Source: Hyphomicrobiales bacterium
Lineage (GTDB): Bacteria; Pseudomonadota; Alphaproteobacteria; Rhizobiales; Beijerinckiaceae
DNA length: 40,589 nucleotides
Direction: 5' to 3'
Assembly: GCA_947455725.1 (NCBI GenBank)
Contig: CANGPL010000021.1
Span: 1 to 40,589, forward strand
Part shown: in pieces, positions 1,311-29,439 of the stretch
How the letters are laid out: each line of letters opens with the position of its first letter
Position numbering within the stretch: the first letter of the stretch is position 1
The notes under the pieces: generated by a model
The model's input: only the letters and a program-made list of their open reading frames with translations
Told to the model about the DNA's origin: nothing
Database searches by the model: none
Program-made: the position numbers and the translations under genes

Positions 1311-1347
1311 GGCGCGCACAATAAGCGTTAAGGGTTCCAGATAAGAA

Positions 1348-1373
1348 CTGGCCGACATTTTACTGTCGGCCAG
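1348..1373 (-). promoter_or_regulatory. Stem-loop between binding-protein and ATPase genes
   Basis: A perfect 10-bp stem CTGGCCGACA/TGTCGGCCAG closes a 6-base loop. It lies in the 108-base gap between the binding-protein stop and the ATPase start. On the transcribed (minus) strand it is followed by a short, weak T-rich run. Stem-loops here commonly protect the upstream message or stop part of transcription, giving more binding protein than ATPase. That role is inferred. Confidence 0.7.
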
Positions 1374-1418
1374 AATGAGAGGTAAGCGGATAATCGATAC
1401 CCGGTCAATACAAGTCGA

Positions 1419-2603: not shown

Positions 2604-2660
2604 CTTAGTCACTCCCTTTAAGTTTAAGTTAGATATCCCCTGCCCAATGGCTCTTTAGGT

Positions 2661-3572
2661 TCAGCGATTGAGCATGAATTCACGCAGCATGTTGGCCAAT
2701 CTGTCTTCTGCTTCCCAAGACAGGCTGTGCCCGCATTCCTCGAAGACCTCCGCGCGCTCGACACCCGTCGAGACTTTCCGCATTTGATCTTCCACAAGCG
2801 GACCAAAAAATTCCGGCGCGCCAATCGTCATGATCGGCAAGGTCAATTTGGTCTTTTTGAGTTCCTTGTTGATGCTCGCGTTCTTCAACCCGGCGCGATA
2901 GGTTTCCAAGCATCCTCTCAAGCCGCCGGGTGCGGACAAACGTGAGATCCATTCGGTAATGGCTTCGTCCGTTATCGCGTTCGGATTCCAGGTTTCGGCC
3001 TTGATCCAGAATTCCCAGAATTCGCGCTCACGTCCGTTGATCAACATTTCGGGAAGATGAGGGATCCAGAAAAACGGAATATGCCAGACCCACACGCCTT
3101 GTTGGCGGAATTGCGCGGAAATATTTTGTGGGGTGAAATTGGACCATTCTTCAAGTCCTTCACCCGATAAAAGCATTTCGCAGAAGGAGAGCGTTTTCAC
3201 GCGAGCGCGCTCAGTTGCGGCTAAAGCGTACGCAAATTCAGCGCCGCGATCTTCGCCGTGAACATGGAAGGTTTCATGACCCAAAAACGTCATCAACTCG
3301 CTGACATCCTTGGCGTTGGTAAGCGAGTCGTAGCCTTCTTCCGCTGGTGGCTTATCCGTGTAGCCAAAGCCGCGCAGATCGGGCGCCACGACGGTGAAAT
3401 GCTCAGTCAGTAGCGGGAATAACTTGGCCCAATAAAAACTCGTTTTTGGCGTGCCGTGCAGCAAAAGGAGTGGCTCACCCTTGCCTGCGGTGACGTAATG
3501 CATACGAATGCCGTTAACCCGCGCACGGCCATGTTTTACGGGATTACCCGCATGATCATAAATTTCAGCCAT
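2661..3572 (-). CDS. Alpha/beta hydrolase, epoxide hydrolase / haloacetate dehalogenase-like
   Basis: This 303-residue cytoplasmic enzyme belongs to the alpha/beta-hydrolase fold group that uses an aspartate nucleophile. The oxyanion-hole motif HGTP is at residues 39-42, PDLRGFGYTDKP follows at about 64-75, the nucleophile elbow GEDRGA places Asp108 as nucleophile, and the catalytic His is probably His282 (ECGHS). Relatives usually have GHDRG or GHDWG, so the Glu before the Asp is a small variation. These enzymes cleave C-halogen bonds or epoxides, and some act on esters or lactones. The gene is first in the leftward operon with the binding protein and ABC ATPase, which suggests that it acts on the imported substrate. 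No signal peptide is visible. The exact reaction cannot be assigned. Confidence 0.85.
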   Translation of the reverse strand: MAEIYDHAGNPVKHGRARVNGIRMHYVTAGKGEPLLLLHGTPKTSFYWAKLFPLLTEHFTVVAPDLRGFGYTDKPPAEEGYDSLTNAKDVSELMTFLGHETFHVHGEDRGAEFAYALAATERARVKTLSFCEMLLSGEGLEEWSNFTPQNISAQFRQQGVWVWHIPFFWIPHLPEMLINGREREFWEFWIKAETWNPNAITDEAITEWISRLSAPGGLRGCLETYRAGLKNASINKELKKTKLTLPIMTIGAPEFFGPLVEDQMRKVSTGVERAEVFEECGHSLSWEAEDRLANMLREFMLNR

Positions 3573-4781
3573 AGCTTCCCCCCAAATCTTCCATCGTCCA
3601 ACAGCGGACCGGGTCAGTTTAGCCCCACTCCAACCGATCCGTCAGGGCGCTATTTTTAGCCGCCAAGACTGAATTGGCTTTCGCCGAAAACAACGTGACG
3701 ATGTAAATATGCACGTTTGTCTTCTTCAGAATTTAAAAGTTCAATATTTTAGAACTTTTGTCAACACACAAAAATTTATGTTCTAAAAAATATTTCGATT
3801 AAAGTTGAGGCAATTAGAAATAATTATGAAAAAAGGTCTTAAAAAAATAGTTATAAGAATTATTTCCTTTATTTTCTAAAATATTTTTGAACATTTTTAA
3901 AATTTATTACGAAAATAATCATGAAACGGATGGCTTGAACTCAGCGCTTTAAGCATTGCTAACGTCGCTGAAATGCGTCCGATGGTCTTTGACGAGGCGT
4001 CGGCGGGGTTCAATGGTTCGCATTTCAGACTGGCAACGTTAGTGGTAACAGTTGGATCTATCGCTAGGGCGCAAGAGCTAACAATCGAACTAAGAAACGA
4101 ACGTTTAGGATGAGCAGAGCGATGGGTCACGACAGCTACTGAGTAATCGTAATAACCTTGCCAATTTCACGGTGAGGTTACAGATTGAAAACTCTCTTTG
4201 ATATTATTTGGTAGCGGAGGAAGGCTACGGTCTATACAGCGTGTTTTGGATTGAGCTGCCCAAAAAGTAGATCTATCTAGTATAAATAATTGATTTTATT
4301 AATAAATTCAGATTATAGATCTGTCAGTTGCGGTTCACGCAATCCCCGAGACTTTCTAGTGCCTTGCAATCTATAGTGTGTGTGTCGCTATGTTGTCGGG
4401 TAATGCTTCGAATAGTATCAACAGATCGACGCTAAAATTATGCTTATATTATAAGTCTTCATATGGCGCGCCATTTTCTAACCCACTAAATCACTACTTA
4501 ACTGCTGTAATGCAACGATAATTCAATCGTGACTTATGGTGTTAGAATCATGCGGGTCGAACAGTGGGGTACCTATTGCCCCAAATACTATTTATCAAAC
4601 TGGGCTTTCCTCCGCGTATACAGCAAGTTCCCAAAGCCTTGCAAGCTAGCGTTCAAAAGCAGTAATAGTGCTTTTCTTGGATCCTCGTAACAAAATTGAT
4701 TTCCTTGCTTGAGGTGAAGCAATCGCTTGAGCACCGTTAAATTGGCACCGCTCACCACCAATCTAATGTCCGTCATATCCG
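3573..4781. other. AT-rich intergenic region without a convincing gene
   Basis: About 1.2 kb separates the hydrolase operon from the LacI gene. The part from 3700 to 3900 is strongly AT-rich and carries the palindrome listed separately. Short open frames exist on the minus strand (77 codons ending at 3897, 62 codons ending at 4588), but I recognise neither and neither has a clear ribosome site. The 12-mer TGGTAGCGGAGG at 4209-4220 recurs at 26173-26184 in another gene-poor gap. The region may hold decayed mobile DNA as well as the hydrolase operon promoter. Confidence 0.5.
3735..3759. promoter_or_regulatory. Candidate operator, perfect 8-bp inverted repeat
   Basis: The arms AAAAGTTC and GAACTTTT are separated by nine A/T bases. 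The element lies about 165 bases upstream of the hydrolase start. Imperfect copies of the GTTC...AATATTTT theme occur nearby at about 3780-3795 and 3875-3895. A regulator site for the leftward hydrolase/ABC operon is plausible. The binding protein is unknown, although the LacI gene at 4782-5810 is the nearest candidate. Confidence 0.4.
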
Positions 4782-5810
4782 TTAAATATTTTCACGCGTG
4801 AAAATATCAAACGGCAGGATCGTTGTTTGAGTACTGTGCGTGGCACCTTCAAGCTTTGATTTTATCATTCCCGCAATGGTCGTTTCAGCGAGCCGTTGCA
4901 AGGGATGAGAAATGACCATAGATAAGGTGCCATCAAGCAGCGCCTCTCGTGTTGGTTCCATCAATTCATATCCGACACAATCAATAATGCCAGCTTTGCC
5001 ACTCGAACGCAGAGCCGATAACGCACCCGAAATTCCACCGCCGGAAATGAAAAGACCACTGAGGTCTGGGTGCTCTGCTAGAAGCTGTTCGGTTACTTCT
5101 TGGGCAATGGAGCGGGTTTCAAAGGTCGGTATGGATTCAATCAATTGAAATTCAGGTGCATATTCACGAAAATATGATCGGAATCCCGCCTCATTCATTT
5201 CCTGGCAGCGAAAGCGGTGGTTACCAACGAGAACGCCAATTTTGCCGGGCTTTTGACTGAATTTATGGAAAGCCCACGCCGACATGCGCCCGACTTTCCA
5301 ATTGTCGAGCCCGACATAGTTGAAGCTTCCCGTTGCCGACAATTCGGAAATTAGACCGAATATGGGAATTCCAGCACCTGAAACCTCGTCAATTACTCGC
5401 GTAATTTGCGGATGAACGGGTGCAACAATGCCAATGGCATTGCATGTCTCCCCGAGTTCCAGCAGCTTGGAAGCAAAGAAATCGGGAGAAAGATCTTCAG
5501 CAAAGACAATGTGAGTTTCAATCGCTGGTGTTTCACTGCGTGCGGCAGCGGCTTCAAGAGCAGCTCCAAGCATTTTGTAAAAGGTACGCGTTGGTTGCAG
5601 GAGCAGAAATCCGAATTTAACCTTCGGCCTTTGCGCGGATAAGCGATAATCAATGGTCCGCAGCCCATGATACCCCAATTTGTTCGCGGCATCCTTGATC
5701 GCTTGGGCTGTTGCGCCCTTTAAACCGCCCTCCCCCTTCAGCAGACGGTTGACGGTGGAGACCGATACGCCGGCCTCTTTGGCAATGTCCTTGATTGTTA
5801 TTCGTGCCAT
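4782..5810 (-). CDS. LacI-family transcriptional regulator (LacI-A)
   Basis: This 342-residue regulator has an N-terminal LacI helix-turn-helix (TIKDIAKEAGVSVSTVNRLL, residues 5-24, hinge to about 60) and a sugar-binding type effector domain. It is clearly paralogous to the LacI protein at 11890-12921. Both share the segment GFRSYFREYAPEF, the FGFLL..P...FY.. opening of the effector domain and an ending like PxDFYxxENI. It is transcribed away from the membrane hydroxylase at 5960 and shares a 149-base divergent control region carrying two AAACG-centred repeats. Likely roles are autoregulation and control of the hydroxylase, and possibly of the hydrolase/ABC operon downstream. The ligand is probably a cyclitol or related compound, by association only. 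Confidence 0.92.
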   Translation of the reverse strand: MARITIKDIAKEAGVSVSTVNRLLKGEGGLKGATAQAIKDAANKLGYHGLRTIDYRLSAQRPKVKFGFLLLQPTRTFYKMLGAALEAAAARSETPAIETHIVFAEDLSPDFFASKLLELGETCNAIGIVAPVHPQITRVIDEVSGAGIPIFGLISELSATGSFNYVGLDNWKVGRMSAWAFHKFSQKPGKIGVLVGNHRFRCQEMNEAGFRSYFREYAPEFQLIESIPTFETRSIAQEVTEQLLAEHPDLSGLFISGGGISGALSALRSSGKAGIIDCVGYELMEPTREALLDGTLSMVISHPLQRLAETTIAGMIKSKLEGATHSTQTTILPFDIFTRENI

Positions 5811-5829
5811 TGAGCCCCCCGTAAAAATC

Positions 5830-5856
5830 TCAAACGTTTCAAATTAAACGGTTCAA
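5830..5856. promoter_or_regulatory. Tandem LacI-type operator candidates
   Basis: Two 13-base elements, TCAAACGTTTCAA (5830-5842) and TTAAACGGTTCAA (5844-5856), match at 11 positions and repeat every 14 bases. Each has the central CG typical of LacI-family operators. They sit 20 bases upstream of the LacI-A start and in the shared control region with the hydroxylase, so LacI-A is the natural candidate binder. Confidence 0.55.
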
Positions 5857-5959
5857 AATGAAAGAAATAAAACAAATTAAAGCTATAAATATGTCTCAGA
5901 TTGAATTGAAAATTTCATTGTGTCAATTTTTCCCATCATTTTAGTTGGGTAGGTTGACG

Positions 5960-6964
5960 ATGGACGATCTCAAATACGGAACGCGCAATAAACGTGGCGA
6001 TTGGGCGCCATCAACCCATCCAGAGATCGCGTTTTTCTGGAAAGAGCCCTTCAATTTCCGCAAATGGGGAAAGTTTATACTTGGCTATGTGTGGCCATGG
6101 AATGCGTTTCACATGGCTGTCACGCTGCTGTATTGGCGCTTTGTGCTTCCCGATTGGGAGGTGATGAAAACGCTGAACTTGGATTGGGCGCTGTGGCTTT
6201 ATGCCGTAAACGGCATCGGTATTTTCTTGACGTATGGCTCGATCGAGCTCATCTATTACGTGAAACGCAAACAAGGTGCGCGTTTCAAATATAATTCGAA
6301 GTTCCCCTCCGATCAGCCATCGGATGTGTTCTGGTTCAAAAGCCAGAATATCGATAATTTTCTGCGCAGCTATCTTTCGGGAATTGTCTTTTGGACCCTG
6401 GTCGAAGTGCTGATGCTCTGGTGCTATGCCAACCACTATGTTTATTGGTTGAACTGGTCCGAACACCCCGTCTGGCTAACGCTTTTACTGCTGGCGACAC
6501 CCTTGATACACGAACTCAACTTCTTCGTGATTCATCGTCTGATCCACATTCCCATCCTCTATAAGTGGATCCATTCCGTTCATCATAATTCGATCAATCC
6601 CTCGCCTTGGTCATCGCTCTCGATGCACCCGGTTGAAACCTTCCTCTATCATGGCGTTGTTTGGTGGCATCTCGTTCTGCCTTCCAACCCGCTCATTGCG
6701 TTGTTTCAATTGCATATGGCAGGCTATGGCGCGTTGAACGGTCACATTGGATTTGACCGACTTGAGCTGACAGACGACAGCGCACTCGATAGCCATGCCT
6801 ATCTGCATTACCTGCACCATAAATATTTCGAAGTGAATTATGGCGGCGATGGCCTGATCCCTTTGGATTACTGGTTCGGCACTTGGCATGACGGCTCGAA
6901 AGAAGCCGATGCTTTGATGGAGGCTCGCTACGCGAAGAAAGTGGCTAAGCTTAATCCACAATGA
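5960..6964 (+). CDS. Membrane fatty acid hydroxylase / sterol desaturase family protein
   Basis: This is a 334-residue integral membrane di-iron oxygenase of the fatty-acid-hydroxylase superfamily. The histidine clusters expected to bind two irons are visible: HELNFFVIH (residues 184-192), HSVHH (205-209) and HAYLHYLHH (279-287). Hydrophobic spans around residues 40-60, 78-97, 138-158 and 170-184 fit a membrane protein. A TTG at 5945 is in frame, but the ATG at 5960 has GGGTAGG six bases before it and was chosen. These enzymes hydroxylate or desaturate lipids, sterols, carotenoids or alkyl groups using O2 and an electron donor. Here the donor could be the MocE/MocF pair 3-5 kb away. The substrate is unknown. 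The gene diverges from LacI-A and is followed by the PanB-like gene. Confidence 0.9.
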   Translation: MDDLKYGTRNKRGDWAPSTHPEIAFFWKEPFNFRKWGKFILGYVWPWNAFHMAVTLLYWRFVLPDWEVMKTLNLDWALWLYAVNGIGIFLTYGSIELIYYVKRKQGARFKYNSKFPSDQPSDVFWFKSQNIDNFLRSYLSGIVFWTLVEVLMLWCYANHYVYWLNWSEHPVWLTLLLLATPLIHELNFFVIHRLIHIPILYKWIHSVHHNSINPSPWSSLSMHPVETFLYHGVVWWHLVLPSNPLIALFQLHMAGYGALNGHIGFDRLELTDDSALDSHAYLHYLHHKYFEVNYGGDGLIPLDYWFGTWHDGSKEADALMEARYAKKVAKLNPQ

Positions 6965-7044
6965 AAGTCATCATTGCTTATGAGGATGACGCCGTTACTT
7001 GGCCCACGCGTGATCTTCCGCCCATGCAATCATTTGCAAGATAA
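6961..7044 (+). CDS. Possible tiny ORF coupled to the hydroxylase stop
   Basis: An ATG overlaps the hydroxylase stop as ATGA and opens a 27-codon frame starting MKVIIAYEDDAVTWPTRDLP and ending in TAA. The 4-base overlap is the usual form of translational coupling, but so short a product could equally be the remaining start of a decayed gene. I recognise no family. Nothing else is evident in the rest of the gap up to 7163. Confidence 0.25.
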   Translation: MKVIIAYEDDAVTWPTRDLPPMQSFAR

Positions 7045-7163
7045 TGGCGGTGAACCATTGAGCGTTGTCGCCTCGCGCGGTAGCCTCGAACCATTATAAA
7101 AGCGGCAGCGTAAAATATCGATTTTGTCTGCCAGCATTTGTCCACGAGAACAGAGGAAATGCC

Positions 7164-7958
7164 ATGCAGAACAAACGGATGACGATTGCGGACCTTCGGG
7201 CCCAAAAGGGCAAGCGTCAAATGACAATGTTGTTTGTCGAAACCCCTGACGAGGCCGCAGCAGCCTCTGCGGCGGGCATTGACTTGCTCTCGATCATCGC
7301 GCCTTTATGGACGCCCGAAATGCGCGAAGCGGCAGGCGATTGCTTTGTTCAGGTTGGCCTTTTGTATGGCGAACTAGTTACTTATGAAGATTATGCGCGC
7401 GCGGCCTTCGCAGGCATGAAAATCGGCGGGGATGCCTTTTATTGCGCTGGTAGCCTCGATACGATCGCGAAACTATCGGCTGAAGGCATACCGGTTATTG
7501 GCCATGTCGGTTTAATTCCTTCTCGCGCGACCTGGACTGGCGGATTTAAAGCCGTCGGCAAAACGGCTGACACGGCGATGTTAGTATACAACCAATGCAA
7601 AGCGCTCGAAGCGGCCGGCGCGGTTGGTGCCGAGATCGAGGTGGTGCCCAGTAAAGTTACCGCCGAAATTGCCAAACATACCTCCCTCGTCCTGCTCTCA
7701 ATGGGTGCAGGGACGGGAGGCGACGCGCAATATCTTTTTTCCGAAGATGTACTCGGATATACCCGCGGCCACAAACCGCGTCATGCCAAGACCTATCGTA
7801 ATTTCCGTGCCGAATATGATCGCCTTCAACACGAGCGGATCGCGGCCTTCCGTGAATTCCGCCGCGATGTCGAACAGGGTCTTTATCCGGAAGAAAAGCA
7901 CCTTGTTCCGATTGCCGACGCCGAGTTCGATGCCTTTATCCAATCATTGCCACATTAG
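7164..7958 (+). CDS. PanB-like (ketopantoate hydroxymethyltransferase family) protein lacking metal ligands
   Basis: This 264-residue protein follows the PanB fold family over its whole second half. GIPVIGHVGLIPS matches the PanB GHLGLTPQ segment, GGFKAVGK matches GGYKVQGR, and IEVVP keeps the catalytic Glu (Glu159, equivalent to E. coli Glu181). By hand alignment to E. coli PanB from memory, the three magnesium-binding positions (Asp45, Asp84, Glu114) are Ala46, Gly65 and Ala95 here, and about 20 residues between the first two are deleted. Normal PanB transfers a one-carbon unit from methylene-tetrahydrofolate to 2-oxoisovalerate. Without the metal site this reaction is doubtful, so a changed activity or a binding role is likely. 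The ATG at 7164 has GAGGAA just upstream. Its stop overlaps the convergent mocF stop by two bases. Confidence 0.8.
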   Translation: MQNKRMTIADLRAQKGKRQMTMLFVETPDEAAAASAAGIDLLSIIAPLWTPEMREAAGDCFVQVGLLYGELVTYEDYARAAFAGMKIGGDAFYCAGSLDTIAKLSAEGIPVIGHVGLIPSRATWTGGFKAVGKTADTAMLVYNQCKALEAAGAVGAEIEVVPSKVTAEIAKHTSLVLLSMGAGTGGDAQYLFSEDVLGYTRGHKPRHAKTYRNFRAEYDRLQHERIAAFREFRRDVEQGLYPEEKHLVPIADAEFDAFIQSLPH

Positions 7959-9169
7959 GCCGTTAAAAGACTTTTTAATTTAAGAGCAGGATCGCCAAGC
8001 GCAGCCGGATCGGGAAGCGAGCGCTTGGCAATCAGCATTTCAGCGACCCGGATATCGCGGGCCACACTATTGCCCAGGCCTATGCCGCTGGCGGCTAGCA
8101 GGCGGCCATTGTCCGAAAGATGGAAGAGGATAAAGCATCCATCCCCCAGATCACGCCGCACGGTTTGTGAGGCTTCGCCCGATAGCCCTGCTATCTGAAG
8201 GCCGAGCTCATATTGATCCGACCAAAACCACGGAACGGATTGATAGTCGTCCGTAGCCCCGAGCATGGCACGCGCGGCATGCGCGCCTTGCTCTTGCGCC
8301 GCGCGCCAGCTCTCGATGCGGATGCGTTTGCCGTCATAAAGCGGGTGCGGGAATGAACAGCAATCTCCCGCCGCAAATATCAACGGATCGGATGTTCTGA
8401 GCTGGCCATCAACGGCGATGCCATTATCAATGACGAGGTCCGCAGCGGCGGCAATGTCCGTCACCGGAACAGAGCCGATGCCCGCGACAACGAGATCGCT
8501 TGCAATCGTCCTTCCGTCCTGCAGCGTTATTGAACCCTTCGAATCCACATCGACGATGTTAGCGCCACATATCACTTCAACGCCTTCGGCCCGATGACGG
8601 GCTTCAATCACGGTGGCAATCTCGGCCGGCACCGCGCGGCCGAGGAGCCTCGGCGCTGCTTCAATCAACGTGACGTGGGTTTCCTTCGAACGAGCCTGAA
8701 CGGCCAATTCAAGACCGATAAACCCGCCACCTATGATGGTCAGTCGGCTGCCTTTCGTTACGCGTTCAAAAATCCGAACCGCATCGTCATAGGTCCTGAG
8801 ATAGGCGAGGTTTGGAACGTGTCGGTCATTCCATAAAAACGGTCTGGATTTGGCCCCAATCGCGATCAACAAGCGGTCATAGGCAAGGCTTTCGCTGTTC
8901 GAGATCAAAACCTGCTGCGCCGTTCGATCAATCGCTGTCGCGGCGAGATCTTGATGCAGCGTGATCTTGTTTGGACCTAAATCAAGGGCACCCATAATCG
9001 GCTTGAGCGACAAACCATCGGCACACGGCTTTGAAAGAGGTGGACGTTCATAAGGCGTGTGGGGTTCGCCATGGATCAGGTCAATGGTTCCCGTAAATCC
9101 CTCCTCGCGAAAGGTGAGCGCCGCCCTTATGCCACACTCGCCCGCCCCGATAATGACCACCCGATCCAT
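7955..9169 (-). CDS. mocF: FAD-dependent ferredoxin reductase, MocF-like
   Basis: This 404-residue cytoplasmic flavoprotein would pass electrons from NAD(P)H to the Rieske ferredoxin encoded upstream in the same operon. The N-terminal FAD-binding motif IIGAGECG is at residues 6-13. The segment TPYERPPLSK is a hallmark of oxygenase-coupled ferredoxin reductases (BphA4/rubredoxin reductase type). A second nucleotide-binding motif, IIGGGFIGLE, lies in the middle for NAD(P)H, and GDCCSF gives the second FAD contact. It is the last gene of the leftward run mocD-mocE-iolG-mocF, 76 bases after iolG. Its stop codon overlaps the stop of the convergent PanB-like gene. The symbol follows the rhizopine mocDEF system. 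The family is certain and the specific partner is inferred from context. Confidence 0.85.
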   Translation of the reverse strand: MDRVVIIGAGECGIRAALTFREEGFTGTIDLIHGEPHTPYERPPLSKPCADGLSLKPIMGALDLGPNKITLHQDLAATAIDRTAQQVLISNSESLAYDRLLIAIGAKSRPFLWNDRHVPNLAYLRTYDDAVRIFERVTKGSRLTIIGGGFIGLELAVQARSKETHVTLIEAAPRLLGRAVPAEIATVIEARHRAEGVEVICGANIVDVDSKGSITLQDGRTIASDLVVAGIGSVPVTDIAAAADLVIDNGIAVDGQLRTSDPLIFAAGDCCSFPHPLYDGKRIRIESWRAAQEQGAHAARAMLGATDDYQSVPWFWSDQYELGLQIAGLSGEASQTVRRDLGDGCFILFHLSDNGRLLAASGIGLGNSVARDIRVAEMLIAKRSLPDPAALGDPALKLKSLLTA

Positions 9170-9245
9170 GATGCATCCTTGCGCTTGGCAAAAAGACTTA
9201 CCTTATGTCCGGCTTTTCAATCGGCCTGTTGTATGCCCGGTTACT

Positions 9246-10241
9246 TTAGACGGAAACCTTGACTTCCATGCCCGTTTGCATGGATTTGACCGCCGCATCG
9301 GCGAGCTCGAGCGCCTTAAGGCCATCAAGGCCCGTCGGCGAAATCACCGCGTTACTCTCGATCGCTTTGACAAAGCTTTGCAGTTCGGTGCGATAGGCGA
9401 CCGCATAACGCTCCATGAAGAAGTCAAGCAAGGGTGCATTGTGATAGCCGTCTTTATTGGCAACCGATACGGTGTTGGTGTGCACATTTGCCGCACTTAC
9501 CGCGCCTTTAGAGCCATGCACTTCAATGCGTTGGTCGTAGCCATAGGTCGCGCGGCGCGAATTGGTAATAACGGCGATCTTGCCAGACTTTGTTCGCAGC
9601 GTCGCGGAAGCCGTATCGACATCGCCTGCCGCCCCAATCGCCGGATCAACCAGCACCGATCCCGCAGCTGAAACCGCGATGATCTCGTCATTCAAAAGAA
9701 AACGCGCCATATCGAAATCATGGATCATCATGTCGCGGAAAATACCGCCCGAACGCTTGATGTAGTCAACCGGCGGCGGGCCCGGATCACGCGAGGTGAT
9801 TTGCACAAGCTCGACCGTACCGATGGCACCGGCATCGATCTGCGCGCGAGCGGCGGCAAAGTTCACATCGAAGCGACGGTTGAAGCCGATCATCAGCTTG
9901 GCCTTCGTCTCTTCCACAACCTTCAAACAGGCGCGTACGCGATCCGTCGATAAATCAACGGGCTTCTCGCAAAAAATAGCCTTTCCCGCGCGGGCAGACA
10001 ATTCGATCTGGTCGGCATGCATATCGGTCGGCGTGCAGATCAGAACGGCGTGAATTGTCTTGTCTGCCAAGATCTCCTCGACACTGGCACGGCGCGCGCC
10101 CGACATTGCGACAATATGCTCTGCCGCCGCATCCACCGGATCGAACACGGCAGCGAGTTTGGTGCCGATAATTCCCATCAGTGCGGTTGCGTGGGTCTTG
10201 CCGATGCGGCCAGCACCCAATAGCCCAAAATTGATTGTCAT
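9246..10241 (-). CDS. iolG: Inositol 2-dehydrogenase
   Basis: The enzyme (331 residues, Gfo/Idh/MocA family) oxidises myo-inositol with NAD+ to 2-keto-myo-inositol (scyllo-inosose). It matches rhizobial IolG closely. The Rossmann motif GLLGAGRIG is at residues 6-14, the EKP motif with the catalytic lysine at 92-94, SRDPGPPPVDYIKRSGGIFRD at about 150-170, and the catalytic Asp170/His174 pair in FRDMMIHDFDMARF. Of the three Gfo/Idh proteins in the window this is the best inositol dehydrogenase. It is unusual in lying inside an oxygenase operon, 28 bases after mocE and 76 before mocF, and not with the other iol genes at 18-26 kb. That position suggests the oxygenase product is an inositol that IolG oxidises next. 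Confidence 0.92.
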   Translation of the reverse strand: MTINFGLLGAGRIGKTHATALMGIIGTKLAAVFDPVDAAAEHIVAMSGARRASVEEILADKTIHAVLICTPTDMHADQIELSARAGKAIFCEKPVDLSTDRVRACLKVVEETKAKLMIGFNRRFDVNFAAARAQIDAGAIGTVELVQITSRDPGPPPVDYIKRSGGIFRDMMIHDFDMARFLLNDEIIAVSAAGSVLVDPAIGAAGDVDTASATLRTKSGKIAVITNSRRATYGYDQRIEVHGSKGAVSAANVHTNTVSVANKDGYHNAPLLDFFMERYAVAYRTELQSFVKAIESNAVISPTGLDGLKALELADAAVKSMQTGMEVKVSV

Positions 10242-10269
10242 GCTTGTGCTTTCTCGTTGTTATCGGTCT

Positions 10270-10581
10270 TTAGCCAATTTCGATATACAGATCGCCACCG
10301 TCGATCTTCACGGGATAGGTCTTTAAATTGATGCACACTGGTGCGCCCTTGGCGGCACCAGTCCGGTAATCGAAGCGTCCATTGTGTTTCGGGCATTCGA
10401 TAACATAATCCATCACCAATCCATCGGCGAGATGGACCTTTTCATGCGTGCAAAGGCCAGCAGTGGCATAAAACTGATCGTCCTTGCGATAAAGCGCAAA
10501 GGTCTGCCCCGCATGATCAAACCGGATGACATCCTCGTCCTCAATATCGTCTGTTGCACAGGCTCTTATCCATTCAGCCAT
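10270..10581 (-). CDS. mocE: MocE-family Rieske [2Fe-2S] ferredoxin
   Basis: This 103-residue soluble electron carrier shows the Rieske cluster motif: C44-T-H46 and, 16 residues later, C63-P-K-H66, followed by NGRFDYRTGAAKGAP. It agrees over its full length with the MocE ferredoxins of rhizobia, including the opening W-x-x-ACA-x-DDI and the stretch HLADGLVMDYVIECPKHNGR. It would carry electrons from MocF to the membrane oxygenase MocD. The ATG at 10581 has AAGGA nine bases upstream. It sits 36 bases after mocD and 28 before iolG, in the same operon. Small size and the absence of a membrane span fit a free ferredoxin and not an oxygenase subunit. Confidence 0.92.
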   Translation of the reverse strand: MAEWIRACATDDIEDEDVIRFDHAGQTFALYRKDDQFYATAGLCTHEKVHLADGLVMDYVIECPKHNGRFDYRTGAAKGAPVCINLKTYPVKIDGGDLYIEIG

Positions 10582-10617
10582 CGAATAATATCCTTCATAT
10601 ATTCTTGTGAAACGATC

Positions 10618-11718
10618 TTAATGTGCCGGAACAGGAGCCGGTTTGAACGGGTGAGCGGTGGGCGGCAATTCGCGATGCACAAAATAAGTTGGGTCGCGCA
10701 ATTGCTTGATCATCGTTGGTAAAATTTCACTATACGCGTCGGCAAAACTGGAATAGGGCTTTGGACAATCCGCCAGCATTTCTTTGTGGAGCTCCGGCAA
10801 CGCGTGGTACGGCACCATCGGGAACATATGATGCTCGACGTGATAATTCATATTCCAATAGATGAAGCGGCTGAAGGGGTTCATATAGACCGTGCGGCAA
10901 TTGAGCCGGTGATCTAAGACATCTTCGGCCAAGCCGACATGTTGCGTCACTCCGCATACAATGTGATGCCAAGCGCCGTAAAGACGCGGAAGACCGATGA
11001 TCATCAAAGGCAGAACGGTGCCCCAGTAGAAGCAAGCAGCAACCGCGAAGGCATAGATCACCGTCCAGATACGCGCCACTTTAAAGACTTTTGATTGCTC
11101 TGATTCTGGAATGTAATCCTTTTCGTCCTTGTTCAAAAGGCCAGCCGAATAGCGCAGCATCGCCATCAGCGCGACGGGAAAGTCGATTAATCCAAACAGA
11201 TTGAGGGCTAGGCGAAAAATATCTGGCGGACGCATGGCGGCGATTTCCGGATCGCGACCGACAATAATCGTATCGGTGTGATGACGTGAGTGGCTCCAGC
11301 GCCAGACCACCGGATTTCTCGCAATCATGAAGCAAGCGATCTGATAGACGGCATCATTTTTCCACGGCGTTTTGAATGCTGTCCCGTGGCCGCATTCGTG
11401 CCAACGGCTGTCGCTCGCCGAACCATAGAGGACGCCATAAACCGCGAAGAATGGTGCACACCAAAGACTTGGCCAAAGATAACTGCCAATTGCCGCGGTC
11501 AGAATCATTAATCCGAACCATAGCAATGTATCCCGTGTCGCTGGACCATCGGAGCGCTTCATCAGCTCCTTCATTCGCGCACGCGGGATCTCGGTTTTGT
11601 ACCACTCCGCATTGGCAAGCCCAATCTCGACGGCTTGCTGGTTGAGCGGGCCCGTGAGGCTGTAATCGCGGGGAAAGTGTACCGATGGGTTGCTGACATG
11701 CTCGTTCATTGGAAACAT
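10618..11718 (-). CDS. mocD: MocD-like membrane di-iron oxygenase (fatty acid desaturase fold)
   Basis: This 366-residue integral membrane protein has the three histidine boxes of the desaturase/alkane-hydroxylase superfamily: HECGH (residues 107-111), HSRHH (143-147) and HVEHH (293-297). An extra GAWHHIVCGVTQH stretch lies before the third box. Hydrophobic spans are visible at about 66-100, 172-190 and 216-245. With MocE and MocF it forms a complete oxygenase chain. In Rhizobium the mocDEF genes are needed to convert 3-O-methyl-scyllo-inosamine, apparently by O-demethylation. The embedded iolG and nearby iol genes support a methylated cyclitol substrate, but lipid desaturation remains possible. 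ATGs at 11718 and 11709 are both usable. It is the first gene of the operon and diverges from LacI-B. Confidence 0.85.
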   Translation of the reverse strand: MFPMNEHVSNPSVHFPRDYSLTGPLNQQAVEIGLANAEWYKTEIPRARMKELMKRSDGPATRDTLLWFGLMILTAAIGSYLWPSLWCAPFFAVYGVLYGSASDSRWHECGHGTAFKTPWKNDAVYQIACFMIARNPVVWRWSHSRHHTDTIIVGRDPEIAAMRPPDIFRLALNLFGLIDFPVALMAMLRYSAGLLNKDEKDYIPESEQSKVFKVARIWTVIYAFAVAACFYWGTVLPLMIIGLPRLYGAWHHIVCGVTQHVGLAEDVLDHRLNCRTVYMNPFSRFIYWNMNYHVEHHMFPMVPYHALPELHKEMLADCPKPYSSFADAYSEILPTMIKQLRDPTYFVHRELPPTAHPFKPAPVPAH

Positions 11719-11761
11719 TGCCTTATGTAACGGTCCGGACCGCAGCGGTCCCTAGTTATAG

Positions 11762-11854
11762 CGATAGTATCGGGTGTTTCCGTGGTGCTCAATATCGCAA
11801 TGATGTAATCTTGCATTTTCTATCAAATCGTATCTTATTAGCGTGAAGATAGAA
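11762..11854. promoter_or_regulatory. Divergent mocD / LacI-B control region with TTCTATCA elements
   Basis: The 171-base gap between mocD and LacI-B contains TTCTATCA at 11818-11825 and its inverse GATAGAA at 11848-11854, 23 bases apart. It also contains an 11-base palindrome CGATAGTATCG at 11762-11772. The same TTCTATCA word occurs twice upstream of the transporter operon at 12956 and 12977. A shared binding protein, most simply LacI-B, is inferred. Confidence 0.5.
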
Positions 11855-11889
11855 TGCATAATAATGAAGCGCGAAAGGGCATATGAGAG

Positions 11890-12921
11890 ATGGCACGCCG
11901 TCCTACCATCAAGGATATTGCCGAACGTGCTCTCGTCAGTGTCGCGACAGTTGATCGCGTTCTTAATGGTCGACACCCGGTCCGCGAGGAGACCGCCCGC
12001 GCCGTTTATGACGCGGCGGCTGCGCTCGGATTTCATGCAACAGGGCTTATCCAGCAACGCTTGGCCAAAGATCTACCCACTTATCGTTTCGGCTTTTTGC
12101 TGCAACGGCCCAACCAGCCCTTTTATCAAAATTTCGGCAAGGCGTTGGAAGGAGCTGCCGCCAGCTCATCTAACGCCATCATCCATCCGCGTATTGAATA
12201 TTTACCGTCGCAACGACCGACCGAAGTTGTGACCCACCTAATGGCAATGGCCAATAAAGTGTCGGCGATTGCGATAACGACCATCGACCATCCCAAGATA
12301 TCCGAGGCGGTTGCCGAGCTGAAAATCCGCGGAATTCCCGTTTTTGCCATGCTATCTGATATCGCTCCCGGCATTAGGCAAGGGTATATCGGCTTGAATA
12401 ATCGCCGTGCTGGACGTATGGCCGCCTGGGTCATCGCCCGAACGGCCAAAGCACCCGGTCGGGTAGCCGTTTGCGTCGGCAGTCATCGATTTCAAGGGCA
12501 CGAATTGCGTGAGACGGGATTTCGCAGCTATTTCCGCGAATATGCGCCGGAATTTACGATGTTGGAGACCCTCGTCAATTTAGAAGCCCGCAGCATTGCG
12601 TATGAAGCGACCCTCGATCTGCTGCAGCGTTACCCTGATCTTTCCGGCATCTATGTGGCCGGCGGCGGCATGGAAGGAACCATCAATGCCCTGCGCGAAG
12701 AAAATATGGCCGACAAGATTGCCGTCGTGTGCAATGAATTGACCCCCGATTCCCGCGCAGCCCTCGCTGATACCATTGTGACAGCAGTTATCGGAACTCC
12801 GCTGGACCAGTTAGCACGAGAATTGATGGGCTTAATGATCAAATCGATCAGCAGTGAGGCTGATTCCGTTCCGGGGCAGACTTTTTTACCAATTGATTTC
12901 TACATTTCAGAAAATATTTGA
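11890..12921 (+). CDS. LacI-family transcriptional regulator (LacI-B)
   Basis: This 343-residue regulator has the LacI helix-turn-helix at residues 6-25 (TIKDIAERALVSVATVDRVLNG) and a periplasmic-binding-protein-like effector domain beginning FGFLLQRPNQPFYQNF. It is a paralogue of LacI-A: the stretch GFRSYFREYAPEF and the C-terminal PIDFYISENI are shared. It is transcribed divergently from mocD and lies directly upstream of the IolI-like gene and inositol-type transporter, so it is well placed to control both. Inverted and direct TTCTATCA words lie on both sides of the gene. The inducer is probably an inositol, methyl-inositol or inosose, which is inference from context. Alphaproteobacterial iol operons are more often controlled by an RpiR-type IolR, and none is seen here. 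Confidence 0.92.
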   Translation: MARRPTIKDIAERALVSVATVDRVLNGRHPVREETARAVYDAAAALGFHATGLIQQRLAKDLPTYRFGFLLQRPNQPFYQNFGKALEGAAASSSNAIIHPRIEYLPSQRPTEVVTHLMAMANKVSAIAITTIDHPKISEAVAELKIRGIPVFAMLSDIAPGIRQGYIGLNNRRAGRMAAWVIARTAKAPGRVAVCVGSHRFQGHELRETGFRSYFREYAPEFTMLETLVNLEARSIAYEATLDLLQRYPDLSGIYVAGGGMEGTINALREENMADKIAVVCNELTPDSRAALADTIVTAVIGTPLDQLARELMGLMIKSISSEADSVPGQTFLPIDFYISENI

Positions 12922-13108: not shown

Positions 13109-13936
13109 ATGAGAGCACCTATGCGGACATTCGCGATCAATCATATTACAGCTCCGGAGCTTGATGTGGCAGGCTTTTTTGCACTCGCCCGTTCTCTTGG
13201 TCTCCGTCACGTTGAAATTCGCAATGATATTGAAGGGCAAGCCCTTCTTAATGGCACGTCACCGGAAACCGTCCGATCCGCCGCCCAAGCGGCGGGCGCC
13301 GAGATTATCTCCATCAATGCCCTGCAGCGTTTCAATGAGTGGACGCCGGAACGAGCCGCTGAAGCCAAAGCCTTGGCTGAGTATGCTCAGCGGTGTGGTG
13401 CCCATGCCCTTGTCTTAGTACCGGTCAATGATGGCAGCGGGCGCGCGAATGGCGAGCGTCAAGGCAATCTTCGTAACGCTTTGCGGGAACTTGCTCCTAT
13501 ATTATCCGCGCATGGCTTGATGGGCTTTGTCGAACCACTCGGCTTCGAGATCTGCTCGCTGCGGTCAAAAAAAGAAGCGGTCGAGGCGATTAATGCCTTG
13601 CATCTTTCTGACCGGTTCAAGGTCGTTCATGACACGTTTCATCATTTTCTCGCGGGAGAACCAGAGTTTTTCCCGACCCAAACCGGCCTTGTGCATATAT
13701 CGGGCGTAACCGATCCGACGGTTGGTGTTAGCGCGATGCTGGATGCCCATCGGGTTTTGGTGGATGACGCAGATCGCTTGGGCAACATCACTCAACTCGC
13801 AACCTTATATGCAAGCGAATATAGCGGACCGATTTCGTTCGAACCTTTTTCCGCTTCGGTTCAACAGGATCCGGACCTGCGTTCAAAACTTGCAGCAAGC
13901 ATCGATTTCATCAACCGACATCTGACGGCTGAATGA
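13109..13936 (+). CDS. iolI: IolI-like TIM-barrel isomerase/epimerase
   Basis: This 275-residue sugar-phosphate-isomerase/epimerase-type TIM barrel resembles Bacillus IolI, which interconverts inososes (2-keto-myo-inositol to 1-keto-D-chiro-inositol). Corresponding motifs are HVEIRND near the start, ISINALQRFNEW at about 67-78, and probable metal ligands Glu142 (FVEPLGF), Asp175 (VHDTFHH), His196 (LVHISGV) and Glu245 (ISFEPF). An isomerase of this kind would let the cell feed several inositol stereoisomers into one pathway. GAGGGAG lies 11 bases before the ATG at 13109, slightly far, and a second ATG is at 13121. The gene is first in a rightward operon with the binding protein, permease and ATPase. 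MocC of rhizopine catabolism is a related alternative name. Confidence 0.78.
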   Translation: MRAPMRTFAINHITAPELDVAGFFALARSLGLRHVEIRNDIEGQALLNGTSPETVRSAAQAAGAEIISINALQRFNEWTPERAAEAKALAEYAQRCGAHALVLVPVNDGSGRANGERQGNLRNALRELAPILSAHGLMGFVEPLGFEICSLRSKKEAVEAINALHLSDRFKVVHDTFHHFLAGEPEFFPTQTGLVHISGVTDPTVGVSAMLDAHRVLVDDADRLGNITQLATLYASEYSGPISFEPFSASVQQDPDLRSKLAASIDFINRHLTAE

Positions 13937-14008: not shown

Positions 14009-14956
14009 ATGAAAAAATACGCATTTGTAGCGGCTGTTGCGGTGACCGCAATTATGTCGTCTTCGGCGATGGCCGCAAAAATCGGTGTCTCGATGGCGAA
14101 ATTCGATGATAACTTTCTGACCGTTCTCCGTAACGGCATGATTGCACAGGCCAAGGGTATGAGCGGTGTCGAGCTTCAGGTAGAAGACGCTGGCAATGAT
14201 GTGGCCAAGCAGCTTGACCAGATCAAGAATTTCATCGCGTCCGGCGTTGACGCCATCATTGTTAATCCGGTTGATACCTCGGCGACCCAAGCCATGACCG
14301 ATGCTGCAGCCGCTGGCAAAAAGCCTTTGGTTTATGTGAACCGTCAGCCCATCAATGTCGATACACTTCCAGCCAATCAGGCTTTCGTCGCTTCGAACGA
14401 AGCGGATTCGGGCACGCTCGAAACCAAAGAAGTTTGCCGTATCTTCAAGGCTGCCGGAAAGAAGGAAGCCAATGTGTATGTCATCATGGGCGAACTGTCG
14501 AACCAAGCTGCCGTGCAGCGCACGAAAGACATCGAAGAAGTAATCGCCACACCGGATTGCAACTTCATCAAGATCATCGACAAGCAGACCTCGAACTGGA
14601 ACCGCGACGAAGCCCAGAATTTGATGACCAACTGGCTCTCCACCGGTAAGAAATTCGACGGCGTCATTGCGAATAACGACGAAAGCGCGATCGGTGCCAT
14701 CCAGGCTTTGAAAGCTGCTAAAGTTGATCTTAAGACCGTTGTTGTCGGCGGCGTTGATGCCACACAGGATGCGCTTGCTTCCATGAAGGGCGGTGATCTT
14801 GCGGTTACCGTATTCCAAGACGCTGCCGGTCAGGGTGCTGGCGCTCTTGACGCGGCTTTGAAGTTGGCCAAGGGCGAGAAGGTGGATCGTAAGGTCTATG
14901 TTCCTTTCAAGCTTGTAACGCCTGCGAATATGAACGACTTCATCAAGAAGAACTAA
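14009..14956 (+). CDS. Inositol/rhizopine-type periplasmic binding protein
   Basis: The product is a 315-residue secreted ligand-binding protein. The signal peptide MKKYAFVAAVAVTAIMSSSA ends in AMA just before AKIGVSMAKFDDNFLTVLRNGM. The motifs VEDAGNDVAKQLDQI, ILVNPVDT-like IIVNPVDTSATQAM, VGGVDATQDAL and the C-terminal VTPANMNDF agree with rhizobial proteins annotated as rhizopine/inositol-binding (MocB-like). An upstream in-frame start at 13973 is rejected because GGAGGA lies eight bases before the ATG at 14009. It is followed by a strong stem-loop, then permease and ATPase genes, the FrcBCA-like order. The ligand is inferred to be inositol or a methylated or aminated inositol. The sequence alone does not separate these. 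Confidence 0.88.
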   Translation: MKKYAFVAAVAVTAIMSSSAMAAKIGVSMAKFDDNFLTVLRNGMIAQAKGMSGVELQVEDAGNDVAKQLDQIKNFIASGVDAIIVNPVDTSATQAMTDAAAAGKKPLVYVNRQPINVDTLPANQAFVASNEADSGTLETKEVCRIFKAAGKKEANVYVIMGELSNQAAVQRTKDIEEVIATPDCNFIKIIDKQTSNWNRDEAQNLMTNWLSTGKKFDGVIANNDESAIGAIQALKAAKVDLKTVVVGGVDATQDALASMKGGDLAVTVFQDAAGQGAGALDAALKLAKGEKVDRKVYVPFKLVTPANMNDFIKKN

Positions 14957-14982
14957 GCGCCGATGGGCTTTTGCGCCTAAAG

Positions 14983-15012
14983 ATCGGGAGCAGACAATGT
15001 GCTGCTCCCGAT
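14983..15012 (+). promoter_or_regulatory. Strong stem-loop after the binding-protein gene
   Basis: A perfect 11-bp stem ATCGGGAGCAG/CTGCTCCCGAT closes an 8-base loop, 27 bases after the binding-protein stop and about 120 bases before the permease start. There is no T-run after it, so message protection or partial attenuation fits better than full termination. The same placement is seen in the other two ABC operons. Confidence 0.75.
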
Positions 15013-15133
15013 TAAACAAGCGAAAAATCTATTGTGAAACCTATGCACCCGGCTTCATATTGGAATAAATATCGTAACGAGAAGACGGCATTCATAGCCG
15101 CAGATCTAACGAGGCATGGGGAGGAAACGACCA

Positions 15134-16210
15134 GTGGCAGCAACGCAAGCCGGACCAATTTCGCGCGAGTCTGATCGTTCGTTAAAGTCCAAATTTCCCG
15201 AGCTCAATGTTCTTATTGCTCTGGTCGTTATTGTCGCGACCTTCGAAATTCTCGGTCGCGTTTTTATGGGCGACAGTTTCCTTTTCAATACCAGAACGGA
15301 TGTAACCGGCTTGTTCAATGAACAGCGGCTGCAAATCATCATTCTTCAAGTTTCAATCGTTGGTATCATTGCCGTTGGCGTAACGCAGGTGATCATCTCC
15401 GGCGGAATTGACCTTTCCTCCGGTTCCGTTGTCGGCGCTACAGCAATGATTGCCATGTCATTTGCACAAGTATCGATGGTCAATGGCAGCCCCAACCCGA
15501 CAGCCGTCTTCAAAGGCACAGAATGGCTCGATTTACCCGTTCTCGTTCCCCTAATAATCGCTTTAGGGTGCGGTATTATTGCCGGCGTAACCAATGGGGC
15601 GTTGGTAGCCTATACACGTATTCCACCCTTTATCGCGACGCTCGGCATGATGGTAACAGCGCGTGGCATTTCCAAATGGATTACAAAGGGAAAACCTATT
15701 TCCTTTCCAACCGAGGCCTATACAAAAATCGGCTCTGGAATGATGCCTGTCGTCATCTTCATTTCGATCGCCATTCTGTTTCATCTGATCATGACCTACA
15801 CAAAATATGGTAAGCACTCTTATGCGATCGGTTCGAACGAAGAGGCAGCACGCGTTTCCGGGATAAAGGTCGAAAATCACCGAATTTTGGTTTATACGAT
15901 TGCAGCGTGCCTCGCAGCCTTAGCAGCCGTTGTTGTGTCATCGAAAAATCTAACCGCGCAATCGGGCATGGGTGTGATGTATGAACTCGATGCCATCGCA
16001 ATGGCCGTTATCGGCGGCGTCTCACTATCCGGTGGCCGAGGCTCCATCATTGGCACGGTGCTGGGGGCCCTGATTTTCGGTGTGATCATTTCTGGCTTCA
16101 CCTTCATGCGCCTCGATGCCTATTACCAGGAAATGGTCAAAGGCGTGATCATTGTCGGCGCTGTCGTACTCGATCAGTGGCGCCAACGCAGCCGTAGCTT
16201 AAGAGGTTGA
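15134..16210 (+). CDS. Sugar ABC transporter permease (inositol-type)
   Basis: This 358-residue multi-spanning inner membrane permease belongs to the ribose/fructose/inositol class (RbsC/FrcC/IatP). Hydrophobic segments are plain at about 29-48, 79-101, 129-154, 157-175 and 195-215, and throughout the C-terminal third. The family signature ISGGIDLSSGSVVG appears after the third segment, and GGVSLSGGRGSIIGTVLGALI lies in the cytoplasmic loop that contacts the ATPase. An ATG at 15116 is in frame, but the ribosome site GGGGAGGA lies after it, nine bases before GTG 15134, so GTG is preferred. It forms the channel for the ligand delivered by the 14009-14956 protein. Three bases separate its stop from the ATPase start. 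Confidence 0.92.
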   Translation: MAATQAGPISRESDRSLKSKFPELNVLIALVVIVATFEILGRVFMGDSFLFNTRTDVTGLFNEQRLQIIILQVSIVGIIAVGVTQVIISGGIDLSSGSVVGATAMIAMSFAQVSMVNGSPNPTAVFKGTEWLDLPVLVPLIIALGCGIIAGVTNGALVAYTRIPPFIATLGMMVTARGISKWITKGKPISFPTEAYTKIGSGMMPVVIFISIAILFHLIMTYTKYGKHSYAIGSNEEAARVSGIKVENHRILVYTIAACLAALAAVVVSSKNLTAQSGMGVMYELDAIAMAVIGGVSLSGGRGSIIGTVLGALIFGVIISGFTFMRLDAYYQEMVKGVIIVGAVVLDQWRQRSRSLRG

Positions 16211-16213
16211 GCC

Positions 16214-16984
16214 ATGAATGACCTGATTCTCAAAATTGAAGGCCTGACAAAATATTATGGTGGTGTTCACGCCCTTGAAAATGTCAATTTCGAGCTTCGC
16301 AAAGGTGAGCATGTTGCCATTATGGGAGATAATGGTGCTGGTAAATCGACCTTCGTCCGTCAATTGACTGGCGTTGAACAGCCCACACGTGGAAAAATTG
16401 TGTTCAATGGTAATGAGGTTGTCTTTCGCAGCCCCATCGATGCGCGCGAAGCAGGCATTGAAACAGTATTCCAAAATTTAGCGCTTGCAGATGACCTTGA
16501 TGTACCTTCCAATCTTTTTCTAGGGCGCGAAAAAATTCTTCTGAACCTGGGCCCCTTTTCAATTCTTGATTTCAAAGGAATGCGTGCCGCAACAGAGGCT
16601 GCGCTAAAACGGACGGCTGTTAAAATTCCCGATATCGGCAATATGATCCGCAATATGTCAGGTGGCCAGCGGCAATGCGTTGCAATTGCCCGCACAGCGA
16701 CGTTTGCGTCCAAATTGATCATCATGGACGAACCAACAGCGGCCTTGGGCGTGCAAGAAACCTTGCAGGTTGAAAACATTATCCGCACGCTTAAGGCGAA
16801 TGGTGAGCCGCTGATTCTGATTTCACATAATATGCGGCAAGTATTTGATCTCGTTGACCGGATCATTGTGTTTCGTCGCGGTCGCATCGTTGCAAATCTT
16901 CGTAAAGAAGAGACGAGCGGCGAAGATGTTGTCTCCTATATCACGGGAGCCAAAACAGGAGCGGAATTCGCCGAAGCGGTTTAA
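16214..16984 (+). CDS. Sugar ABC transporter ATP-binding protein, single-domain
   Basis: This 256-residue ATPase has one nucleotide-binding domain like FrcA, not the doubled RbsA form seen at 1-1310. Walker A is GDNGAGKST at about residues 36-44, the Q-loop segment is ETVFQNLAL, the signature is MSGGQRQCVAIARTA, and Walker B is LIIMDEPTAALG with the switch His in ISHNM. It begins three bases after the permease stop, so translation is probably coupled. It powers uptake for the inositol-type transporter and is last in the four-gene operon that starts with the IolI-like gene. Confidence 0.95.
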   Translation: MNDLILKIEGLTKYYGGVHALENVNFELRKGEHVAIMGDNGAGKSTFVRQLTGVEQPTRGKIVFNGNEVVFRSPIDAREAGIETVFQNLALADDLDVPSNLFLGREKILLNLGPFSILDFKGMRAATEAALKRTAVKIPDIGNMIRNMSGGQRQCVAIARTATFASKLIIMDEPTAALGVQETLQVENIIRTLKANGEPLILISHNMRQVFDLVDRIIVFRRGRIVANLRKEETSGEDVVSYITGAKTGAEFAEAV

Positions 16985-22892: not shown

Positions 22893-22908
22893 TTGCAATC
22901 GGTTGCAA
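22893..22908. promoter_or_regulatory. LacI-type operator between divergent iol operons
   Basis: TTGCAATCGGTTGCAA is a 16-base near-perfect palindrome with one mismatched pair next to the central CG, the usual form of LacI-family operators. It lies 51 bases upstream of iolD and 16 bases upstream of the GTG start of the Gfo/Idh gene, so one bound repressor could block both. LacI-C is the nearest regulator of classical type. Confidence 0.65.
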
Positions 22909-22923
22909 AAAGGATCCGGAACG

Positions 22924-24943: not shown

Positions 24944-24957
24944 GAAGGATAACAAAA

Positions 24958-28549: not shown

Positions 28550-28568
28550 GGTTATTAATCCTTTCAGA

Positions 28569-29351: not shown

Positions 29352-29374
29352 TTAAACCTCACCTTTAAGGGGCA

Positions 29375-29433
29375 GATGAGGGGCCTTTCGGTCCCTCATC
29401 CACTGGAGTAAAATAACACGCTAAACGCGTGTT
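29375..29433 (-). promoter_or_regulatory. Two strong stem-loops between binding-protein and ATPase genes
   Basis: On the transcribed strand AACACGC/GCGTGTT (29415-29433, 5-base loop) is followed by ATTTTA. Next comes GATGAGGG/CCCTCATC (29375-29400), which encloses an inner CC-GAAA-GG. They start six bases after the binding-protein stop. The first resembles a leaky terminator. Both could raise binding-protein message relative to ATPase and permease. Confidence 0.75.
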
Positions 29434-29439
29434 CGCCTG

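Follow-up and report, generated by a model that had tools for sequence, protein, structure and literature searches.

Rhizopine is an O-methyl inositol amine (3-O-methyl-scyllo-inosamine), and cytochrome P450 demethylases of 6-O-methyl-galactose in marine bacteria illustrate oxidative O-demethylation of a sugar. According to Bahar 1998, cited in PMC10107442 and PMC5789663, the mocDEF genes take part in the catabolism of rhizopine. In Mesorhizobium loti, nifA2 is activated by FixV, a LacI protein whose close relatives are found next to mocDEF and whose ligand may be an inositol derivative (PMC3538637), and S. meliloti 1021 carries a LacI-mocD-mocE-mocF set (SM_b20817-20820; PMC11387232). Here we analysed a 40,589-nt stretch of contig CANGPL010000021.1 (Hyphomicrobiales bacterium, assembly GCA_947455725.1), hereafter the window, which carries a mocD-mocE-iolG-mocF operon and, facing it, a gene for a PanB-like protein with a rebuilt active site. 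We propose, with a probability of about 0.65, that the former, which lies beside a FixV-like LacI regulator, encodes a MocDEF-type oxidative O-demethylase system acting on methylated inositols (pinitol, ononitol, sequoyitol or similar).

The four genes form a single leftward run on the minus strand (11718-7955), with gaps of 36 nt between mocD and mocE, 28 nt between mocE and iolG and 76 nt between iolG and mocF. The mocD-like gene (10618-11718) encodes a 366-residue membrane di-iron oxygenase of the FA_desaturase fold (PF00487, 130 bits, cut-off 29.7) with three His boxes, HECGH at 107, HSRHH at 143 and HVEHH at 293. The product of mocE (10270-10581, 103 residues) passes the curated cut-off for MocE-type Rieske ferredoxins (TIGR02377, 171.2 against 136.15 bits) and carries the Rieske ligand pattern C-x-H...C-x2-H. 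The 331-residue IolG (9246-10241) likewise passes its curated cut-off (TIGR04380, 427.5 against 355 bits), and its top PDB match, 4hkt, is an inositol 2-dehydrogenase. In these three identities, as in gene order and strand, the operon agrees with a preliminary description made from the DNA alone, which had also named an oxygenase ferredoxin reductase, mocF. This 404-residue protein (7955-9169; PF07992 and PF14759) is indeed a ferredoxin reductase of the HcaD/AndAa type, scoring under the equivalog cut-off for each of its 25 best models (HcaD model, 317.5 bits, cut-off 450). No curated model among these 25 carries the MocF name; the label comes from gene position and from 51–54% identity to the reductases adjoining mocDE in three MocR-type loci. 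A predicted structure of MocD was not usable, as judged by its predicted local distance difference test score (pLDDT, 69.5) and its fold matches (8xqw_M at E 5e-4, others weaker).

Related loci were mapped in the best 80 of 578 confirmed stretches, in four plasmid regions and in 39 MocD stretches from further genomes, including contig C56 of the window's own genome. We kept 110 loci whose MocD exceeds 50% identity and is followed by 3.5 kb of sequence or more, leaving out L002 and the shorter ones. Two of the 110 are one and the same locus, which leaves 109 different loci, many of them from close relatives and not independent. Since MocE lies near 99 and MocF near 80 of the 109 MocDs, the grouping of the oxygenase genes is more than chance. 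A LacI of the window's family was near MocD in 84 loci, the PanB-like gene in 58, IolG (at least 50% identity) in 43 and PurU in 13, the last being undercounted at contig ends; 12 of these 13 also had the PanB-like gene (p 0.0025). The oxygenase operon is established in its gene identities, its order and its recurrence. Among the genes following mocF in 31 loci that have no PanB-like gene, the 12 largest clusters looked like unrelated chromosome genes and shadow open reading frames.

A neighbourhood search, as the preliminary description had suggested, found iolG between mocE and mocF in the window, L003 and L006; in L004 iolG follows mocE and the contig stretch then ends. In a midpoint-rooted MocD tree (64 sequences, 126 before thinning at 88% identity), the MocDs of these four loci form one clade (100/94). 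Besides the window, IolG stands in a same-direction run with MocE or the PanB-like gene in 13 loci, of which ten do not belong to the window's MocD subclade. Gene orders there are mocDEF-panB-iolG (L054, L063, L068, L134), mocDE-panB-iolG (L116), mocE-panB-iolG (L150, L153), mocE-panB-iolG-mocF (L152), mocE-iolG-purU (L101) and panB-iolG (L164). The three IolGs scanned from the 13 runs (L006, L054, L063) all pass the IolG cut-off. These runs in ten other loci rule out an iolG after mocE as a one-off of the window's subclade: its exact position seems special to the window's lineage, and IolG beside the oxidation module recurs in several gene orders. Because IolG shares same-direction runs with MocE or the PanB-like gene in 13 loci, the earlier proposal that the oxygenase product is handed to IolG is favoured.

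Electrons would pass from NADH through MocF and MocE to MocD, which would hydroxylate the O-methyl group of the cyclitol. The resulting hemiacetal would then break down, releasing formaldehyde and the free cyclitol; the inositol so formed would be oxidised by IolG, whose gene lies in the same run, and IolE/D/B/C-type enzymes would carry on. The window holds a second membrane di-iron oxygenase, of the unrelated FA_hydroxylase fold (5960-6964, plus strand; PF04116, 65 bits), which recurs with MocE and the PanB-like gene. Divergent from it is a LacI regulator (4782-5810, minus strand; PF00356), 52–53% identical to the LacI facing FA_hydroxylase in L150 and L151. The second oxygenase would probably share MocE and, since it has its own LacI, may act on a different methyl position or a different methyl cyclitol. 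The one-carbon unit set free would be taken up by the PanB-like protein, in the simplest case by transfer onto tetrahydrofolate (THF). The system as proposed here resembles the marine P450 demethylases in that a carbohydrate is O-demethylated oxidatively and formaldehyde is freed; it differs in using a membrane di-iron oxygenase with a Rieske ferredoxin.

The surrounding inositol genes are consistent with this scheme. From the standard myo-inositol set, IolG, IolC (19988-20959, minus strand; TIGR04382, 313.8 bits, cut-off 300) and IolD (20956-22842, minus strand; TIGR04377, 831 bits, cut-off 715) pass their cut-offs in the window, and an IolB-like (19130-19972, minus strand; TIGR04378, 150.6 bits, cut-off 205) and an IolE-like protein (24053-24943, plus strand; TIGR04379, 169.7 bits, cut-off 290) are below theirs. 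A MocB-family sugar-binding protein (14009-14956, plus strand; PF13407) is 61% identical to the MocB of the MocR-type locus L086, and its top PDB match is 4yo7, which we take to be a myo-inositol complex. With IolC, IolD and the one-carbon genes nearby, it supports the demethylation of an O-methyl cyclitol put forward in the preliminary description, although rhizopine itself is unlikely (see below). That description further spoke of a self-contained pathway; this is too strong, because an IolA-type dehydrogenase over its cut-off lies on another contig (C45) and the window's IolB and IolE are under their cut-offs. The own genome (2.98 Mb, 90% complete) carries a second IolG over the cut-off on contig C2, 90% identical to that of the window, and, on contig C56, the locus in another version, ordered FA_hydroxylase, MocD, PanB-like, Gfo, IolE, Gfo, IolD, IolC, IolB, MocF, MocE, ATPase, permease. 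Its MocD is 76–77% and its PanB-like protein 84% identical to those of the window, and no IolG match was found in this version.

The larger find is the PanB-like gene (7164-7958, plus strand), which lies outside the interval 7955-11718 covered by the preliminary description. It converges tail to tail with mocF, the stop codons overlapping by 4 bp; its open reading frame opens at TTG 7065, and ATG 7164 is preceded by GAGGAAA. The protein matches PF02548 (121 bits) but departs from ketopantoate hydroxymethyltransferase (KPHMT, PanB) in its TIGR00222 score (95.3 bits, cut-off 207.55) and in the loss of D45, D84 and K112. Its model (pLDDT 84.9) has only KPHMT among its 28 best PDB matches (E 3e-15, template modelling score about 0.68, about 25% identity). 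We aligned 93 stop-free PanB-like sequences longer than 200 residues, with one locus or more represented twice, to E. coli PanB as the sole canonical sequence. H136 and E181 (E. coli numbering) are kept in 93 of 93, and D84, K112 and E114 in none. At position 45 all 93 show a gap, and the 47 sequences of a further alignment have A, S, G, P or Y there, so that D45 is lost; an invariant E has appeared at position 179. We take D45 and D84 to be the Mg ligands of KPHMT and K112 its ketoacid residue. The PanB-like protein thus shares with KPHMT the fold, the C-terminal half of the sequence, H136 and E181, and differs from it by the four lost residues, the new E179 and its link to oxygenases.

This link was quantified in 397 genomes of the source organism's order. 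MocD was present in 58 and the PanB-like gene in 38, with both in 34, the PanB-like gene only in 4, MocD only in 24 and neither in 335 (Fisher p 4e-29, not corrected for kinship). At gene level, 42 of 61 PanB-like genes lie at most 10 kb from MocD, and 42 of 75 MocD matches at most 10 kb from a PanB-like gene. We fetched 18 of the 19 PanB-like genes located away from MocD, and in eight of them (L144-L148, L150-L152) a gene related to the window's FA_hydroxylase lies no more than about 5 kb away. In another, L140, a distant MocD-like protein, MocE, an M24 peptidase and the PanB-like protein are encoded in one run (3410-7021); in L141 the PanB-like gene overlaps that of a Rieske ring-hydroxylating oxygenase (PF00848) by 4 bp (6253-8243). 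Outside the order, six PanB-like genes came up in a profile search across 398 genomes of the phylum. A MocD-type oxygenase lies within about 5 kb of four (L161, L163, L165, L166), L164 has an adjoining IolG and a 28% Rieske oxygenase match about 4 kb off, and L162 has no oxygenase partner. What these partners share is, we infer, a product, formaldehyde: a common one-carbon product fits because oxygenases of unrelated folds pair with the same PanB-like protein.

The closest described system, the mocCABRDEF rhizopine locus, allows a direct comparison. Of the 17 plasmid records with a MocR of at least 60% identity, we examined three (R. indicum pPR13E04, S. meliloti RCAM1115 p_1 and P. zundukense unnamed2), which we call rhizopine loci from MocR and gene order only. 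All three show the published order mocC-A-B-R-D-E-F, directly followed by a PanB-like gene and purU. These are two additions to rhizopine clusters that are not named in PMC10107442 (2022, on the rhizopine locus), from whose text panB, purU, hydroxymethyl, formyltetrahydrofolate, demethyl and formaldehyde are all absent. Among the literature matches listed (open-licence PMC papers), we found neither a link of panB or purU to moc nor a methyl-inositol demethylase. The window shares with the rhizopine locus the three MocDEF families in D-E-F order, a MocB-family binding protein and a PanB-like gene nearby. It differs by an iolG between mocE and mocF, a LacI (11890-12921) in the place that MocR holds beside mocDEF, a second oxygenase, a PanB-like gene that is convergent instead of downstream, and no match to PurU. 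In the S. meliloti MocR-type locus (L158, about 14569-15620), mocD appears as two BLAST pieces with no annotation and is probably broken.

Could rhizopine itself be the substrate? The mocDEF homology and the binding protein, 61% identical to MocB, speak for it. We nevertheless consider it clearly unlikely, because neither MocR nor PurU of L086 has a tblastn match in the window at E 1e-3 and because the MocDs belong to different clades: the window's MocD sits in a clade of 13 rows (100/99), and the tree places both rhizopine-type MocDs, those of L086 and L159, in another, rhizobial one of 36 rows (100/100). The presence of a LacI instead of MocR points the same way. Binding-protein scores argue less well, since the MocB of L086 itself does not match the rhizopine binding-protein model at 1e-15; the window's proteins at 14009 and 29440 reach 29.7 and 68.4 bits (cut-off 420), the latter being a weak match from another ATP-binding cassette (ABC) system (27530-30453). 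Another methylated sugar or an N-methyl compound, with the nearby iol genes forming a separate locus, has a modest chance of being the true substrate and is still rather unlikely. Two window dehydrogenases resemble levoglucosan dehydrogenase, and the PanB-like gene also occurs with the Rieske oxygenase of L141 and with the MocD-like protein, MocE and M24 peptidase of L140. Moreover, Pseudomonas syringae has mocDEF beside xylA2 and lacks the remaining moc genes there, so that other substrates are possible for the family (PMC5132102). Against this stand the IolG within the run in the window's clade and ten further loci, and the 4yo7 match of the binding protein. That MocD and FA_hydroxylase would act on membrane lipids, as their lipid-desaturase or hydroxylase folds might suggest, is very improbable given the sugar transporter, LacI, IolG, PanB-like and PurU neighbours in many loci. 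Methyl inositols are the likeliest substrates; pinitol and ononitol accumulate in Lotus nodules, and pea makes ononitol (PMC8730688).

The assignment of the PanB-like protein is less firm. We know of no folate-using enzyme that catches formaldehyde; PurU frees formate from formyl-THF. The PanB-like protein may catch the formaldehyde set free by demethylation. In a more speculative reading it would be a dedicated THF-dependent formaldehyde-capturing enzyme, derived from KPHMT by dropping the ketoacid and metal site, which serves oxidative demethylases of unrelated folds by transferring their formaldehyde (or hydroxymethyl) product to THF, with PurU as formate outlet in some rhizobia. By description only, this job of enzymatic formaldehyde capture resembles that of Fae and Gfa, which are other proteins and use tetrahydromethanopterin and glutathione as carriers (PMC8879981), where THF is the carrier proposed here. 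Instead of handling one-carbon units, the protein might act as an aldolase on one of the pathway's carbon skeletons or have remained a ketopantoate synthase. PanB is described as a metal-requiring class II aldolase (PMC4814558), and the fold, with KPHMT as all 28 best PDB matches, is in favour of this possibility. We hold it to be doubtful, as D84, K112 and E114 are kept in 0 of 93 sequences and the oxygenase partners are of unrelated folds. Among 12 other chosen genomes with a PanB-like gene, eight have a separate PanB over the cut-off and four have none. Since neither canonical PanB nor PanC was found in the own genome (90% complete), the PanB-like gene is probably not kept for pantothenate; this organism is possibly a pantothenate auxotroph, or its PanB and PanC genes are in the missing 10%.

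Several observations weigh against our proposal. The PanB-like gene is not obligatory, because it is absent near 51 of the 109 MocDs, and 24 of the 58 MocD genomes have none detected. Among the 18 fetched PanB-like genes away from MocD, three (L153-L155, with L153 at a contig end) have MocE but no detected oxygenase, and five (L139, L142, L143, L149, L157, the last at a contig end) have none of these partners. No PurU over the cut-off was found in the 90% complete own genome. As IolB and IolE score under their cut-offs, the carbon route may differ from that of standard myo-inositol. The nearest relatives are environmental metagenome-assembled genomes, not known plant symbionts, and biochemical data on MocD were not found in the literature searched; to these is added the P. 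syringae arrangement cited above. Taken together, the preliminary observation is sound and its interpretation good in outline. The methyl-cyclitol proposal is well supported but not proven; we infer the substrate, the regulation, the electron path and the reactions of the oxygenases and the PanB-like protein.

A FixV-like LacI would be expected to share about 60% identity with FixV and to be divergent from mocD. The LacI regulator next to mocD (11890-12921, plus strand; PF00356) is divergent from it and shares 56% identity with a LacI whose gene precedes nifA in L188, which is not FixV of M. loti R7A itself. As in the FixV-linked rhizobial mocDEF clusters (PMC3538637), the LacI gene diverges from mocD and is followed by a TIM-barrel epimerase-like gene, with a sugar ABC transporter also present; the window differs by the inserted IolG, another MocD clade and the lack of a full GATAGNNNCTATC box found in most relatives. 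This box occurs with at most 2 mismatches in 84 of 96 LacI/mocD control regions, 6.6 being expected from mononucleotide shuffles, a test that is partly circular because the box was found in the same 96 regions. As judged from these sequences, GATAGNNNCTATC is a candidate operator of the FixV-like LacI family.

It was rejected as operator of the window, where the divergent control region (11719-11889) contains TGATAGAAA and no full GATAGNNNCTATC: the window, L003, L004 and L005 have only 3-mismatch matches, at chance level. A longer GATAGNNNCTATC form has 23 matches across the window, where shuffles average 11.7 and one in 100 reaches that number; none lies in 11719-11889, and we draw no conclusion from them. 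A 12-bp palindrome at 11731-11742 was also discarded, as it is not among the two best palindromes in the 18 relatives listed and its near matches in the window, 5 against a mean of 3.5, are no more than chance would give. A sigma-70 scan gave promoters at chance level (6 against 7.7). Elsewhere, three related strains (L188, L189, L190) each have one 2-mismatch GATAGNNNCTATC site between the fixV-like lacI and nifA, too weak to claim, and L191 has a 1-mismatch site just past the LacI gene.

Beyond these genes, a xylose-isomerase-like TIM barrel, possibly Msi119-like (13109-13936, plus strand; PF01261, 90 bits), precedes the MocB-family protein, which is followed by an ABC permease (15116-16210) and a single-domain ABC ATPase (16214-16984), both on the plus strand. 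A class II aldolase, possibly IolJ (18306-19133, minus strand; fruc_bis_ald, 215 bits, cut-off 343), adjoins iolB, and two Gfo/Idh/MocA-type dehydrogenases (22903-24048 and 24940-26115, plus strand) flank iolE. At the left edge (3-3572) are a sugar-type ABC ATPase cut by the window edge, a binding protein and an alpha/beta hydrolase. Genes for a GntR regulator, a short-chain dehydrogenase/reductase, an enolase-superfamily protein, a galactonate dehydratase and an SMP-30 lactonase (30541-35465) look like a sugar-acid pathway, and two tyrosine-recombinase-like open reading frames (36777-39328) are possibly a mobile element.

Condensation of formaldehyde with THF has been described as spontaneous (PMC8879981) and as too slow in vivo for growth. 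In E. coli, panB and ltaE were deleted as possible promiscuous catalysts with no change, and an uncharacterised enzyme could not be ruled out (PMC7073904). The question of an enzymatic reaction becomes directly testable, because a PanB relative is tied by genome position to likely demethylases. If the PanB-like protein does capture formaldehyde on THF, it would supply the enzyme thought to be lacking from the THF branch of formaldehyde metabolism, as well as a missing part of rhizopine catabolism. The locus also suggests how bacteria may use the methyl inositols abundant in legume nodules, and makes these compounds or their products candidate inducers of FixV.

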